From Verrucomicrobium sp. GAS474 (lineage in GTDB: Bacteria; Verrucomicrobiota; Verrucomicrobiia; Methylacidiphilales; GAS474), in NCBI RefSeq assembly GCF_900105685.1, contig NZ_LT629781.1:1426001-1490000 (forward strand): a stretch of DNA of 64,000 bases. Reading direction: 5' to 3'. Below the pieces are notes generated by a model, which did no database searches, was not told the origin of the DNA, and saw only the letters and a program-made list of their open reading frames with translations. Made by a program: the position numbers and the translations under genes. Shown one piece after another: positions 20,585 through 24,285 of this stretch (position 1 is its first letter; the number at the start of each line of letters is the position of its first letter).

Positions 20585-21412
20585 CTACGGCCCGGCGGGG
20601 GGAGGCGCCGCCCCCTGTTCCAATTCCGTCCGCAGCGTGTGGACCGACAGCTGCCACGCCACGGCCTCGTCGAGGGCGCGGATGAAGGCAGGCGTGGCGA
20701 CGCCGAAGTTTTTCCAGCCCCGGGCGTAGGCGATGGTCTTTTTCGGTCCCTGGACGGCGGAGAGCCACGACGTCGTGTCGAAGTAGCCGTCGTCGGGGTG
20801 GAGCTGGGCGACGGCGAGGGCGCTTTGCCCCGTGCCGAGTTTCGCCGCCGCCTCCTTGATCGTGAAGGTCCCTTCGCCGCCGGGGGCGAGGAAGGGGATG
20901 CGGTCCCGCAGGTGATAGCCGTAGCGGCCCCGTTCCGGGACGTCGGTGACGATGAGCCCGGCGAGGCGGGGCGGGGGCGGCGGTACGGCCGCGCCGCCGA
21001 GGGCCGCCGCCGCGCCGAGGCCCCGGCCCAGCAGGAAGATCGGCGCGTTGCGGGCGACGAAGGCGGGGGGTGCCGCCTCGACGATCCGCTCCAGGTCGGC
21101 GGCAAAGTCGTCGGGCGCATAGTCGCCCCCTTTCACCGAGGCGTAGCGGACCGTCTCGATGCCGAGGACGTAATAGCCCATCTTGGCCAGATGGCCGCCG
21201 ACCCGGTCTTCCCACAACGTCCAATCGCCCTTCCCGGTGAAGAGGAGGATCACCGCCGGGGCGGGCGTCGTCCCGGGCGGCGGGAGGTCGTGGACGGTGA
21301 AGACGGCGTGGGCGAGCTGGACGGGGAGGGTGGTGCGGACGCCGTCGCTCTTCTGCCCGTGGAGGAACGCGGGGAGGAAAAGGAGCAGGAGGACGAGGAG
21401 GCGGTGCATCAT
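20585..21412 (-). CDS. Exported VirJ/AcvB-like alpha/beta hydrolase-fold protein
   Basis: About 275 residues. MMHRLLVLLLLFLPAFLHGQ is a signal peptide. The rest resembles the VirJ domain of AcvB/VirJ proteins: PAVILLFTGKGDWTLWE, YYVLGIETVRYASVK, DFAADLERIV and GRGWKNF-like blocks. VirJ proteins are periplasmic serine hydrolases; AcvB acts on aminoacyl-phosphatidylglycerol. At the nucleophile elbow this protein reads LLGRGLGAA, where the family has a G-x-S-x-G motif, so the Ser appears replaced by Gly and activity is doubtful. The start overlaps the nagA stop (ATGA), so the two are coupled. Confidence 0.65.
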   Translation of the reverse strand: MMHRLLVLLLLFLPAFLHGQKSDGVRTTLPVQLAHAVFTVHDLPPPGTTPAPAVILLFTGKGDWTLWEDRVGGHLAKMGYYVLGIETVRYASVKGGDYAPDDFAADLERIVEAAPPAFVARNAPIFLLGRGLGAAAALGGAAVPPPPPRLAGLIVTDVPERGRYGYHLRDRIPFLAPGGEGTFTIKEAAAKLGTGQSALAVAQLHPDDGYFDTTSWLSAVQGPKKTIAYARGWKNFGVATPAFIRALDEAVAWQLSVHTLRTELEQGAAPPPAGP

Positions 21413-22587
21413 GAATCCCGGAATGATTTTCCCTGCTGGCAGATGTCGTACTGGCCCATGCCGCCCTCGGCGTCGAAGCGGAAGAGGGCGAAGTCGGCAC
21501 GGTTTCCCACCTTCACGCGGGCGTCGTGGCCGATCCACTGGGCCGGGCGGAGGGAGAAGGCGTCCCAGCAATCGGCCCACGGCAGTCCGGAGAGGGTGGC
21601 GGCGGTGAAGACGCCGGAGAAGGGAAGGAGCGTGGAGCCCGCCAGCCGCCGGGAGCCGGGCAGGACGGCGCAGCCCCGTTCGTCGAGGGCGACGGTCTGG
21701 TAGCCGAGGGTGACGGTGGCGGGCTCGGCGGAGGGGGCGGGCGGGAGCATTCCCGCTCCGGCCATCGCGTCGGTCGTCAGGAGGAGGCGGGGGCCGAGCG
21801 CCCGTGCCAAGGCTCGGAAGGCGTGGCGGGGAAGGTGGGCGCCGTCGGGGATCAGCGAGGCGAAGAGGTTTTCCTCGGCCAGGGCGTGGAGAATCACATT
21901 GTCGAATTTGTCGACCTGCCTCGGCATCGCGTTGCCGAGGTGGGTCCAGCACGAGGCCCCCGCCGCCACGGCCTCGCGGAGGACGTCGCCCATCGCGAGG
22001 GAGTGGCCGATCGAGATGCGGACGCCCTCGGCGACGCGGGCGCGGATGAAGGGAAGGGAGAGCTCGGGGGCGATCTCCGGGGCGAGGGTGATGAGGCGGA
22101 TGCGGCCTCCGGCGGTCTTTTGCCAGCGGGCGAAGAGGGCCTCGTCGGCCGGGATCATCCGGGCCGGGTCGTGGGCGCCGCGCGTGCCGGGATCGGGGTT
22201 GAGGAAGGGACCTTCGAGGTGGATGCCGATGCAGTTGAAGGGCGTCTCGGAGATCCGGGCGGCGAGGAGGGCGAGGAGGGCGTCGGTCTCGTCGGCGGAA
22301 TGGGTGATGAGGGTGGCCAGGAAGGCGGTGCAGCCGTGGGCCAGGAGGACGCGGCAGGCTTGTTTCCACCTCTCGGGGGTCAGCCCCTCGGCCCGGTTGA
22401 AATCGACGCCGCCGAAGCCGTTGATCTGGAGATCGACGAGGCCGGGAGCGAGGAGGGGAGCCTCGGGCGCTTTCTCCTTCAGGGGCTCGATGGAGACATA
22501 CCGTCCCTCGGCAATCGCGAAAGAGAAAGCTTCCTCGGTCCGGTAATGACGGGCGACGAAGGTACCAGAGGTGTTAACAGCGGACAC
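21409..22587 (-). CDS. nagA: N-acetylglucosamine-6-phosphate deacetylase
   Basis: A 392-residue amidohydrolase of the NagA family. APGLVDLQINGFGGVDFN is the first NagA block, with the family's Q-x-N in place of H-x-H. Glu125 in GIHLEGPF, ISIGHS, THLGNAM and the catalytic Asp in TTDAMAG follow. The enzyme removes acetate from GlcNAc-6-phosphate, giving glucosamine-6-phosphate for amino-sugar catabolism or peptidoglycan recycling. A GTG start is used. No nagB or GlcNAc transporter lies next to it. It is co-transcribed with the VirJ-like gene downstream. Confidence 0.9.
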   Translation of the reverse strand: MSAVNTSGTFVARHYRTEEAFSFAIAEGRYVSIEPLKEKAPEAPLLAPGLVDLQINGFGGVDFNRAEGLTPERWKQACRVLLAHGCTAFLATLITHSADETDALLALLAARISETPFNCIGIHLEGPFLNPDPGTRGAHDPARMIPADEALFARWQKTAGGRIRLITLAPEIAPELSLPFIRARVAEGVRISIGHSLAMGDVLREAVAAGASCWTHLGNAMPRQVDKFDNVILHALAEENLFASLIPDGAHLPRHAFRALARALGPRLLLTTDAMAGAGMLPPAPSAEPATVTLGYQTVALDERGCAVLPGSRRLAGSTLLPFSGVFTAATLSGLPWADCWDAFSLRPAQWIGHDARVKVGNRADFALFRFDAEGGMGQYDICQQGKSFRDS

Positions 22588-22704
22588 GGCGCGATGATTG
22601 CAGTCGCCCCGCCGTTTTGGAAGAATTTAACCCTCCATTCCATTTTGGGGCGTGTGTTGTACGGAAATGGAATAATAATTGCTCTCCCTGTTGCCCTAAT
22701 CGCT

Positions 22705-23304
22705 ATGTCCGCCCCCACCCTCCGCTACGCCACGTCGCTCGTCCCCGCCACCACCCGCATCTATATGGAGATGGGCTCGGTCTTCGCGAAGCAGCTCGCC
22801 AACGGCTCGACCTTCGTCGTCCTCAGCTACCAGCCCGACGAGGGCCGCATCCGGGCGAAGACCTCGACGCTGAAGCCCGAGGGCCGGGGGCCGACCTACC
22901 AGCTGCGGACCACCCACGGCGTCTACGAGATGGGGGCGACCCAGCGCCTCCGCCTCCGCGACGGGCGGGCCGTCCCGATCGCCGAGGTCCAGCCCGGGGA
23001 GGAGATCCACTCGTGCGACATCCAGAACGCCGACGGCTTCATCTTCATCGACACCGGCAAGGGCCTCGCCGCCCTCCACGACCTGATCGAGTCGGACATG
23101 CAGGGGATCGCCGCCCAGCTCGGCATTCCCCAGCCTTCCTCCTACCAGCCGGGGATCGTCCAGAAAGTCGTCTCGGTCACCCCCGGCCCCGACGCCGACC
23201 TCTGCCTCCTCTCGGTCGACGACCCGACGACGAACGCCGACGGCCATTGCTTCATGCTCTGGCCCGACGGAACCTCCTTCGGATCAGGTATTTTCGTTTA
23301 CTGA
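22705..23304 (+). CDS. Small protein with Hint/intein-like fold signature (degenerate)
   Basis: A 199-residue cytoplasmic protein, not recognised with confidence. Residues about 65-105 (LRTTHGVYEMGATQRLRLRD, then a VPIAEVQPGEEI segment) resemble the Hint pattern T-x-x-H...DG...EL-x-PGD. The C-terminal VVSVTPGPDADLCLLSVDDP and a following N-A-D-G resemble the last Hint strands that normally end in HN. The expected His of block B is Leu here, and no C-terminal His-Asn or splice-site Cys/Ser is evident. It would then be a stand-alone, non-splicing Hint relative. It lies between nagA (divergent) and parB. Beyond the fold hint no function can be claimed. Confidence 0.5.
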   Translation: MSAPTLRYATSLVPATTRIYMEMGSVFAKQLANGSTFVVLSYQPDEGRIRAKTSTLKPEGRGPTYQLRTTHGVYEMGATQRLRLRDGRAVPIAEVQPGEEIHSCDIQNADGFIFIDTGKGLAALHDLIESDMQGIAAQLGIPQPSSYQPGIVQKVVSVTPGPDADLCLLSVDDPTTNADGHCFMLWPDGTSFGSGIFVY

Positions 23305-23376: not shown

Positions 23377-24285
23377 ATGGCAGGAAAAGGACTCGGGCGC
23401 GGATTGAGCGCCCTCATCGGAGCAGGCGCCCAGGGACTCGCCTCCCCCCAACCTCAGTTCGAGAAGGGGGAGACCGTCCGGCGCATCCCGTTGGAGCAGA
23501 TCGTCCCCAGCCCCTTCCAGCCCCGGAAGAACTTCGCCCCGGAGCAGCTCGCCGAGCTCGTCGAGTCGGTGCGGGAAAAGGGGATCATCCAGCCCCTCGT
23601 CGTCCGCCTCGTCGGCGGGAAGTACGAGCTGATCGCCGGGGAACGCCGCTGGCGCGCCTCCCAGGCCGCCGGGCTGAAGGAAGCCCCCGTCATCGTCCGC
23701 GCGGCGAGCGACCGGGAAGTCCTCGAACTCGCCCTCATCGAGAACCTCCAACGGGCCGACCTCGACCCCGTCGAGGAGGCCGAGGCCTATGCCCTCCTCA
23801 TCAACCAATTCCGCCTCACCCAGGAGCAGGTCGCCCAGCGCGTCGGCAAGAGCCGCGCCAACGTGGCCAACGCCCTCCGCCTCCTCACCCTCTCCGAAGA
23901 CCTCCGCAGCTGGGTCTCCGGCGGCCGCCTCAGCGTCGGCCACGCCAAGGTCATCCTCGGCCTTCCCGACAAGGAGACGCAGGCGAAGGTCGCCGACCGC
24001 GTCCTGAAGGACAACCTCACCGTCCGGGCGACCGAGAAACTCGTCGAGTCGCTCCGCCCCCGCTCCGGTTCCGGAAGCGCGGCCAAGGGCTCCGGCGCGA
24101 AGGCCAAGGCCCCCGCGCCCGTCACCGAGGCCGCCTGGGCCGACCTCGAAAAACGGCTTCAGCGCGCCCTCGGCACCCGCGTCCGCCTGGCCGGGACGAA
24201 CCAGGCCGGGAAGGTCGTCATCGAGTACTTCTCGGCCGACGAGCTCGACCGGTTGTTGAAGGCCCTCGGCGTGACCGAATTGTAA
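23377..24285 (+). CDS. parB: Chromosome partitioning protein ParB
   Basis: About 302 residues. The N-terminus MAGKGLGRGLSALIG is typical of chromosomal ParB. The CTPase domain has IVPSPFQPRKNF, GIIQPLVVR and the GERRWRAS box. The helix-turn-helix region contains LTQEQVAQRVGKSRANVANA, followed by LSVGHAKVILGL and a C-terminal dimerisation segment ending LLKALGVTEL. It loads at parS and spreads as a CTP-dependent clamp to position the origin. parA, usually directly upstream, is not adjacent here. A -10-like TAGTAC (23360-23365) lies 11 bases before the ATG with TTGATC 16 bases further upstream. Confidence 0.93.
   Translation: MAGKGLGRGLSALIGAGAQGLASPQPQFEKGETVRRIPLEQIVPSPFQPRKNFAPEQLAELVESVREKGIIQPLVVRLVGGKYELIAGERRWRASQAAGLKEAPVIVRAASDREVLELALIENLQRADLDPVEEAEAYALLINQFRLTQEQVAQRVGKSRANVANALRLLTLSEDLRSWVSGGRLSVGHAKVILGLPDKETQAKVADRVLKDNLTVRATEKLVESLRPRSGSGSAAKGSGAKAKAPAPVTEAAWADLEKRLQRALGTRVRLAGTNQAGKVVIEYFSADELDRLLKALGVTEL

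Follow-up and report, generated by a model that had tools for sequence, protein, structure and literature searches.

A conserved verrucomicrobial family of stand-alone predicted Hint-fold proteins without the splicing residues, probably a domesticated intein fold

Analysis of a 64,000-nucleotide stretch of DNA from Verrucomicrobium sp. GAS474 (here called the window; contig NZ_LT629781.1, positions 1,426,001 to 1,490,000 of genome G000, a single contig of 3.76 Mb) revealed a gene for a stand-alone protein with a predicted Hint fold at 22705..23304 on the plus strand. The assignment is based on the open reading frame, the seven members of a protein family, an AlphaFold2 (AF2) model compared by Foldseek and VIA-align, and hhalign profile comparison. 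The protein is, on balance, probably a free-standing Hint that has lost splicing and cleavage and was domesticated as a cytoplasmic binding protein. It belongs to a Hint-like family that is under purifying selection and has been kept in old lineages.

The gene begins with ATG at 22705, ends with a stop codon at 23302-23304 and encodes a product of 199 amino acids. Its GC content at the three codon positions (0.63/0.47/0.94) is like that of five adjacent genes. An alternative in-frame start lies at 22594, upstream of the ATG at 22705. The short form was adopted because in the orthologue (L001), which encodes a protein of 198 amino acids, the complete stop-to-stop frame of 207 codons has no room for an extension from 22594. 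The in-frame extension, 22594-22704, occupies the gap after a divergent amidohydrolase gene. The orthologue is 74 to 75% identical to the window protein and is flanked by the same two genes, and a profile of these two sequences recovered five further full-length members, 29 to 39% identical to the window protein. An orthologue with the same two neighbors and five further full-length homologs demonstrate that 22705-23304 is a real gene and not a chance frame. The seven full-length members, including the window protein, are distributed over three families of one verrucomicrobial class, namely f1 (the window protein and L001), f66 (L009, L011, and L012), and f76 (L010 and L013). They are 198 to 203 amino acids long, with no second domain attached.

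Searches with established models were negative or gave chance matches. The window protein matched no Pfam or NCBIfam model up to an E value of 10; NCBIfam was searched with the window protein alone and Pfam with all seven members, for which the sole Pfam match was the unrelated SPAR at an E value of 0.12. PADLOC models gave no match to the seven members up to an E value of 1, and PHROG gave three, each to one member only (best E value, 0.041). A PDB sequence search with the window protein returned an antibody chain at an E value of 0.025 and other matches, all set aside as chance. With the family profile, a PDB search reached the DnaB intein (1mi8) only at an E value of 1.3, behind six other rows. 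The sequence of the window protein contains no CxxC motif. Neither an endonuclease domain nor a zinc finger was found in it, as judged from the lack of a Pfam match and from the predicted Hint fold, which approximately fills the 199 residues.

AF2 prediction from the seven-sequence alignment yielded a best model with a pLDDT of 83.1 and a pTM of 0.79; the remaining four models had pLDDT values of 76.8, 59.1, 50.3, and 46.0 (2 of 5 models above 70), and prediction from only two sequences gave a pLDDT of 37.6. The model shows a full all-beta Hint horseshoe over nearly the whole chain. VIA-align superposed it on the Mtu RecA intein (Z 16.0, 1.8 Å, 133 residues aligned), the Hedgehog domain 1at0 (Z 13.4), and the BIL domain 2lwy (Z 13.2), and the best 50 matches listed (Z 16.0 to 11.7) were all inteins, Hedgehog autoprocessing domains, or BIL domains. 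No AXH domain is among these 50 listed matches, which is no evidence of absence. Foldseek against the PDB gave 36 matches with E values of 1e-3 or lower, all of them inteins or BIL domains (best E value, 1.2e-6). Foldseek matches among viral predicted structures included proteins named Hint or intein and also terminases, polymerases, and reductases, which were taken to carry inteins. In the structure alignment, model residues 12-199 pair with the intein from its residue 1 to what is presumably the last position ahead of its C-terminal Asn. An earlier note on this DNA, made from the sequence alone, had proposed a Hint-like fold and had named a predicted fold without the horseshoe as the finding that would speak against it. 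The horseshoe is present in the predicted model, and the intein, Hedgehog, and BIL matches together with the register of the profile comparison uphold the proposed fold. According to the model and the alignments, the predicted fold is well supported, and the window protein would be a Hint domain and little else. The stand-alone state described in that note was likewise confirmed, in that the predicted Hint domain nearly fills the chain and neither another domain nor exteins are found.

The fold was also examined by a structure-free profile comparison. Global hhalign of the family profile (A2) against a reference set of 51 nonredundant Hint domains, nearly all of them viral, gave a score of 21.0. 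For 100 column-shuffled copies the mean was 2.9 (standard deviation, 2.4; maximum, 9.1), and the reversed alignment scored 2.8. Overlapping segments of 200 columns (27 in all) from eight unrelated control families reached a global score of at most 7.9; these families, partly neighbors of family members, are weaker controls than the shuffles because seven contain 2 sequences each and the eighth, ParB, contains 3 usable sequences of 8 loci. The global alignment spans residues 11-199 and has the same register as the structure alignment to within one residue at the N-terminal end. The best local hhalign score was 29.2, and the shuffles reached at most 19.6. This score carries less weight than the global score because one control family, TypA/EFG-like, reached 23.2. 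The best local alignment pairs residues 81-106 with block A, off the global register. We ascribe this pairing to the fact that the Hint fold has internal two-fold symmetry, as mentioned in PMC7664689. With an initial, smaller set of Hints, no local match to the family extended over its full length. When hmmsearch was run with the Hint profile, members and shuffled copies were not distinguished: the window protein was found at an E value of 1.1 with two decoys ranked better, and the other six members were outside the first 15 rows.

Comparison of the conserved blocks revealed which parts of a catalytic Hint have been kept. The clearest is a block A remnant, residues 14-25 (22744..22779, plus strand; structure and profile alignments), which had gone unmentioned in the earlier note; here, PATTRIYMEMGS corresponds to Hint block A (V/I-A-G-T-K-I-T-M-A-D-G-S). 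The strings quoted in that note are present as well, namely DG at residues 86-87, VQPGEEI at 95-101, SVTPGPDADLCLLSVDDP at 157-174, and NADG at 177-180. The profile alignment places the equivalent of block B at residues 72-82 (22918..22950, plus strand), with Thr replaced by G77 and His by Q80, and that of block F at residues 165-184 (23197..23256, plus strand), with His181, likewise unmentioned in that note, conserved in 7 of 7 members. Structure and profile alignments agree on a block G remnant at residues 195-199, GIFVY (23287..23301, plus strand).

The catalytic positions were compared in the order window protein, L001, L009, L010, L011, L012, and L013. All 51 Hints have Cys at position 1, where the members read S, T, C, R, C, C, and P in the profile alignment, in which it is residue 11 (Ser11). 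It is residue 12 in the structure alignment, a column that reads L, R, Y, Y, Y, Y, and Y. The two alignments thus leave an uncertainty of one residue in the placement of position 1, and Cys1 is absent in four members and possibly kept in three. The block A Thr (51 of 51 Hints) reads T, A, T, S, T, T, and T. Block B has lost both residues in all seven: the members have G, A, G, A, G, G, and G in place of the Thr (found in 48 of 51 Hints) and Q, Q, Q, A, Q, Q, and L in place of the His (found in 47 of 51). The block F His, present in 31 of 51 Hints, is His in every member. At the block G His (48 of 51 Hints), the members have Y, Y, Y, C, Y, Y, and G, a replacement in 7 of 7. Tyr199 occupies the position of the penultimate His and is followed by no Asn; the terminal Asn is absent because the chain ends at this position. 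With respect to exteins, only 8 to 11 residues precede position 1 and none follow the C-terminal end. These alignments indicate that blocks B and G have been lost throughout the family, and the predicted loss of catalysis is well supported. The absence of the block B His and of a terminal His-Asn, as claimed in the earlier note, was found in the profile alignment, and the survey of homologs for active-site retention that it proposed revealed that the block B Thr and His and the block G His and Asn are lost in 7 of 7 members.

A class 3 intein was considered and set aside. Class 3 inteins carry Trp at B12, Cys at F4, and Thr at G5 (PMC3196547). On our own placement of these positions on the alignment, the residue two after the block B His column is L, V, F, V, F, F, and L in the members, not Trp, and F4 (the column of residue 168) is Cys in L001 alone. 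Some inteins splice without the block B or penultimate His through compensatory changes (PMC7664689, excerpt). The window protein lacks the terminal Asn and any C-extein on top of these two losses, and from its sequence we infer that it would neither splice nor cleave.

The loss of catalytic residues was not accompanied by decay of the gene. Among the three f66 members, dN/dS (NG86) was 0.034, 0.036, and 0.045, and between the window gene and its orthologue it was 0.31; dS is above 1.5 (saturated) in two pairs, and the very high GC3 may inflate the value of 0.31. Thirty columns, Met1 included, are invariant among the seven members. Eleven of them, Met1 excluded, fall within 16 positions, residues 180-195 (hypergeometric P value, 2.7e-7, from seven sequences that correspond to about four distinct lineages). 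This cluster forms a family signature, GHCFMLWPDGTSFGSG (23242..23289, plus strand; invariant-column cluster and alignment gap), and contains an invariant segment, GH....WPDGTSFGxG, that lies in the interval from block F to block G. Residues 185-192 constitute an 8-residue insert between these blocks without a counterpart in Hints. Residues 104-150 (23014..23154, plus strand), located between blocks B and F, mostly lack a counterpart in the Hint profile and sit where inteins presumably carry a linker or endonuclease. N108, G111, I113, F114, L124, D131, and G134 are invariant in this stretch, and AF2 predicts short strands and a helix (residues 124-133). The word "degenerate" in the earlier note therefore holds for the lost catalytic residues and not for the state of the gene, as the loss itself is conserved under selection.

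The distribution of the family was determined with the seven-member profile A2. Full-length members were found in 7 of 384 genomes of the class, 5 of 62 genomes of the order, 2 of 5 genomes of the order of G309, 1 of 387 genomes drawn from the phylum (that of the window itself), and 0 of 197 genomes of another class; these samples overlap. Each member-bearing genome had one copy in the profile searches. Of the three genomes available for the genus, one (G001, with a completeness of 95%) yielded no copy. An exact-peptide scan of a collection of 84,980 species returned L001 alone. Phage and plasmid records gave best E values of 2 and 1, with no credible relative, and three scans of viral contigs revealed none. 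Partial matches at an E value of 3e-4 or weaker (L007, L008, L014, L015, L016-L020, L021, L129, and L130) were left out of the member count, as were the partial matches L004 and L005. Five weak matches were rejected by eye, as antisense to a gyrase A-like gene (L003) or as genes of the oxidoreductase (L008), phosphodiesterase-like (L014), sialidase-like (L015), and methyltransferase-like (L129) types.

Analysis of the genomic localization revealed a divergent amidohydrolase gene at 21409..22587 on the minus strand (Pfam Amidohydro_1), presumably NagA-like, and a downstream parB gene at 23377..24285 on the plus strand (ParB_N, HTH_ParB, and ParB_C). Both genes flank the member in the two f1 genomes. 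The position next to parB stressed in the earlier note is thus real here and in one congener. In G001, parB has other neighbors, the gene before it resembling bioB, and in the f66 and f76 genomes it is located on other contigs than the Hint-like gene. The adjacency is limited to two genomes of one genus. A parB-linked function was considered and set aside. Both f76 members directly adjoin an Amidase_3 gene (L124:9182-10491 and L125:9277-11185); the two proteins are only 31% identical and yet share this neighbor, possibly an old link. In f66, a small protein without a Pfam match and a DUF6036-type nucleotidyltransferase occur in 2 of 3 genomes, and a GNAT gene lies near the member in 2 of 3, the third contig stopping short. 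In two f66 genomes a small protein with a hydrophobic N terminus is encoded directly upstream (L126:7842-8369 and L127:9878-10366); the L126 copy has no Pfam match. No other gene was common to all three families in the regions compared, and f76 and f1 are linked by a single weak match (27% identity) at a distance of roughly 6 kb or more. The intein model PF14890 matched in 0 of 8 genomes (the six with a further member, G000, and G001), and the control was positive in 6 of 14. The lack of a shared neighbor and of an intein model match in these eight genomes would be in keeping with a protein that works independently. PF14890 matched in 1 of 112 class genomes, below the curated cutoff; this protein (L027) is a verrucomicrobial RHS-type protein that ends in a Hint domain with CFVAGT and VHN intact.

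The finding would be explained as follows. The ancestor would have been a catalytic Hint whose splicing or cleavage was lost while the fold was retained. The former splice-junction cleft may have been remodeled by the WPDGTSFG segment, placed by this reading near the retained block F His181, and could now bind a partner, a protein or a small ligand, with the backbone of the Hint left unbroken. The putative binding role is proposed on the basis of the loss of catalysis and the conservation. It is somewhat probable that the family is a bacterial domestication of the Hint domain alone, devoid of exteins and endonuclease, in which the splicing residues were traded for the invariant binding or catalytic segment. 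The domesticated intein fold envisaged in the earlier note gains support from the Hint fold, the loss of catalytic residues in all seven members, and the purifying selection.

Several other readings were weighed against domestication as a binding protein. The Hint fold might have become a new kind of enzyme, in which H181, R18, D188, S191, or further invariant polar residues would carry out catalysis. The 11 invariant residues in 16 positions around H181 could equally well mark an active site or a binding site, and D131 and N108 are invariant too; however, no Cys is invariant among the seven members, and the 50 structural matches listed are all autoprocessing Hints, none of them an enzyme that uses this fold on another substrate, which leaves a new enzyme rather unlikely. 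Autoprocessing could persist in a Hedgehog-like form, in which position 1 would undergo an N-S or N-O acyl shift and a short N-terminal peptide would be released. In the profile alignment a possible nucleophile occupies position 1 in 5 of 7 members (S, T, C, R, C, C, P), and the compensated inteins mentioned above (PMC7664689, excerpt) offer a parallel. This reading is nevertheless improbable, given that the block B Thr and His are both replaced in every member, that R and P stand at position 1 in two of them, that the structure alignment begins at Leu12, and that the released piece would amount to 8 to 11 residues.

The family might also descend from an old Hint-fold lineage that ran parallel to inteins and never spliced, as would be allowed by the deep divergence (29 to 39% identity between lineages) and by the intein model having no match in any of the eight genomes. 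Against such a descent, block A, the block F H-N-F, and the G-I-F ending of block G are kept as in catalytic Hints, and one lineage has a Cys near position 1; we consider it a doubtful explanation. A decaying intein pseudogene, comparable to Arthrobacter Arth_1007, would match the lost catalytic residues, the stand-alone state, and the absence from one of the three genomes of the genus, but is very hard to reconcile with dN/dS values of 0.034 to 0.045 among three relatives, open full-length frames in all seven members, and 30 invariant columns. That AF2 merely reproduced a common training fold and the protein is no Hint is suggested by pLDDT values below 60 in 3 of 5 models and by the family models without a match; it is highly improbable, as the global profile alignment, which uses no structure, gives the same register.

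Comparison with known systems likewise places the window protein apart. Mini-inteins (Mtu RecA, Npu DnaB, Ssp DnaB, and Ssp DnaE) share the whole fold and the block order A-B-F-G with the window protein. In contrast to them, it has no C-extein and only 8 to 11 residues ahead of position 1, lacks the block B Thr and His and the His-Asn end, and has a different stretch between blocks B and F and the extra WPDGTSFG segment. BIL and Hedgehog autoprocessing domains (2lwy and 1at0) have the same fold (Z 13.2 and 13.4) and catalyze bond cleavage (PMC7664689, excerpt), whereas the window protein has no attached domain to release. The nearest precedent for stand-alone, extein-free relatives of inteins is the HO/WHO yeast endonucleases, which, according to PMC7282813, have no exteins and no motif G, and of which HO does not splice; both retain a zinc finger and an endonuclease region, whereas the window protein is a Hint only. 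In bacteria, the nearest precedent known to us is the Arsp-FB24 Arth_1007 intein, whose exteins amount to 66 amino acids in all, which has lost the block B His and does not splice, and which its authors judged to be a pseudogene that has decayed within the remnant of a prophage (PMC3196547). It shares the short exteins and the lost block B His with the window family, which is instead conserved under selection in three families. The inteins discussed in the excerpt of a review on the recruitment of mobile elements in prokaryotes still splice (PMC8987985). Among open-license PMC papers on domestication, BIL domains, inactive or degenerate inteins, and free-standing or intein-like Hints, we found no report of the family described here.

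A separate observation concerns the AXH domain (ataxin-1 and HBP1). A profile of 25 viral and phage Hint domains (A4; loci L028-L122), searched against PDB chains, matched AXH over Hint positions 1-109 at E values of 4.6e-11 to 3.5e-8, which are stronger than the match to Hedgehog at 1.1e-4. The single Hint of L027 also matched AXH (1.8e-5 to 2.8e-5) via the block DHPFYVK.KGW.S..P. From these sequence matches, AXH may be another domesticated Hint, and our literature search found no paper joining AXH and inteins.

Inteins are usually regarded as elements that splice or vanish. If the domestication reading is true, an intein fold can outlive splicing, contrary to the argument of Tori and Perler that inteins, once inactive, would diverge until they could not be recognized (PMC3196547). 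Unlike this expectation, the window family is still recognizable. In the literature considered here, the stand-alone domestication (HO) keeps its nuclease and the decayed intein is called a pseudogene. A conserved Hint-only family without the splicing residues represents a natural experiment on the use of this fold without splicing, and with seven sequences and one new motif it is a compact target. The Hint models of Pfam and NCBIfam do not detect the family, so that further Hints without catalytic function may hide among hypothetical proteins.
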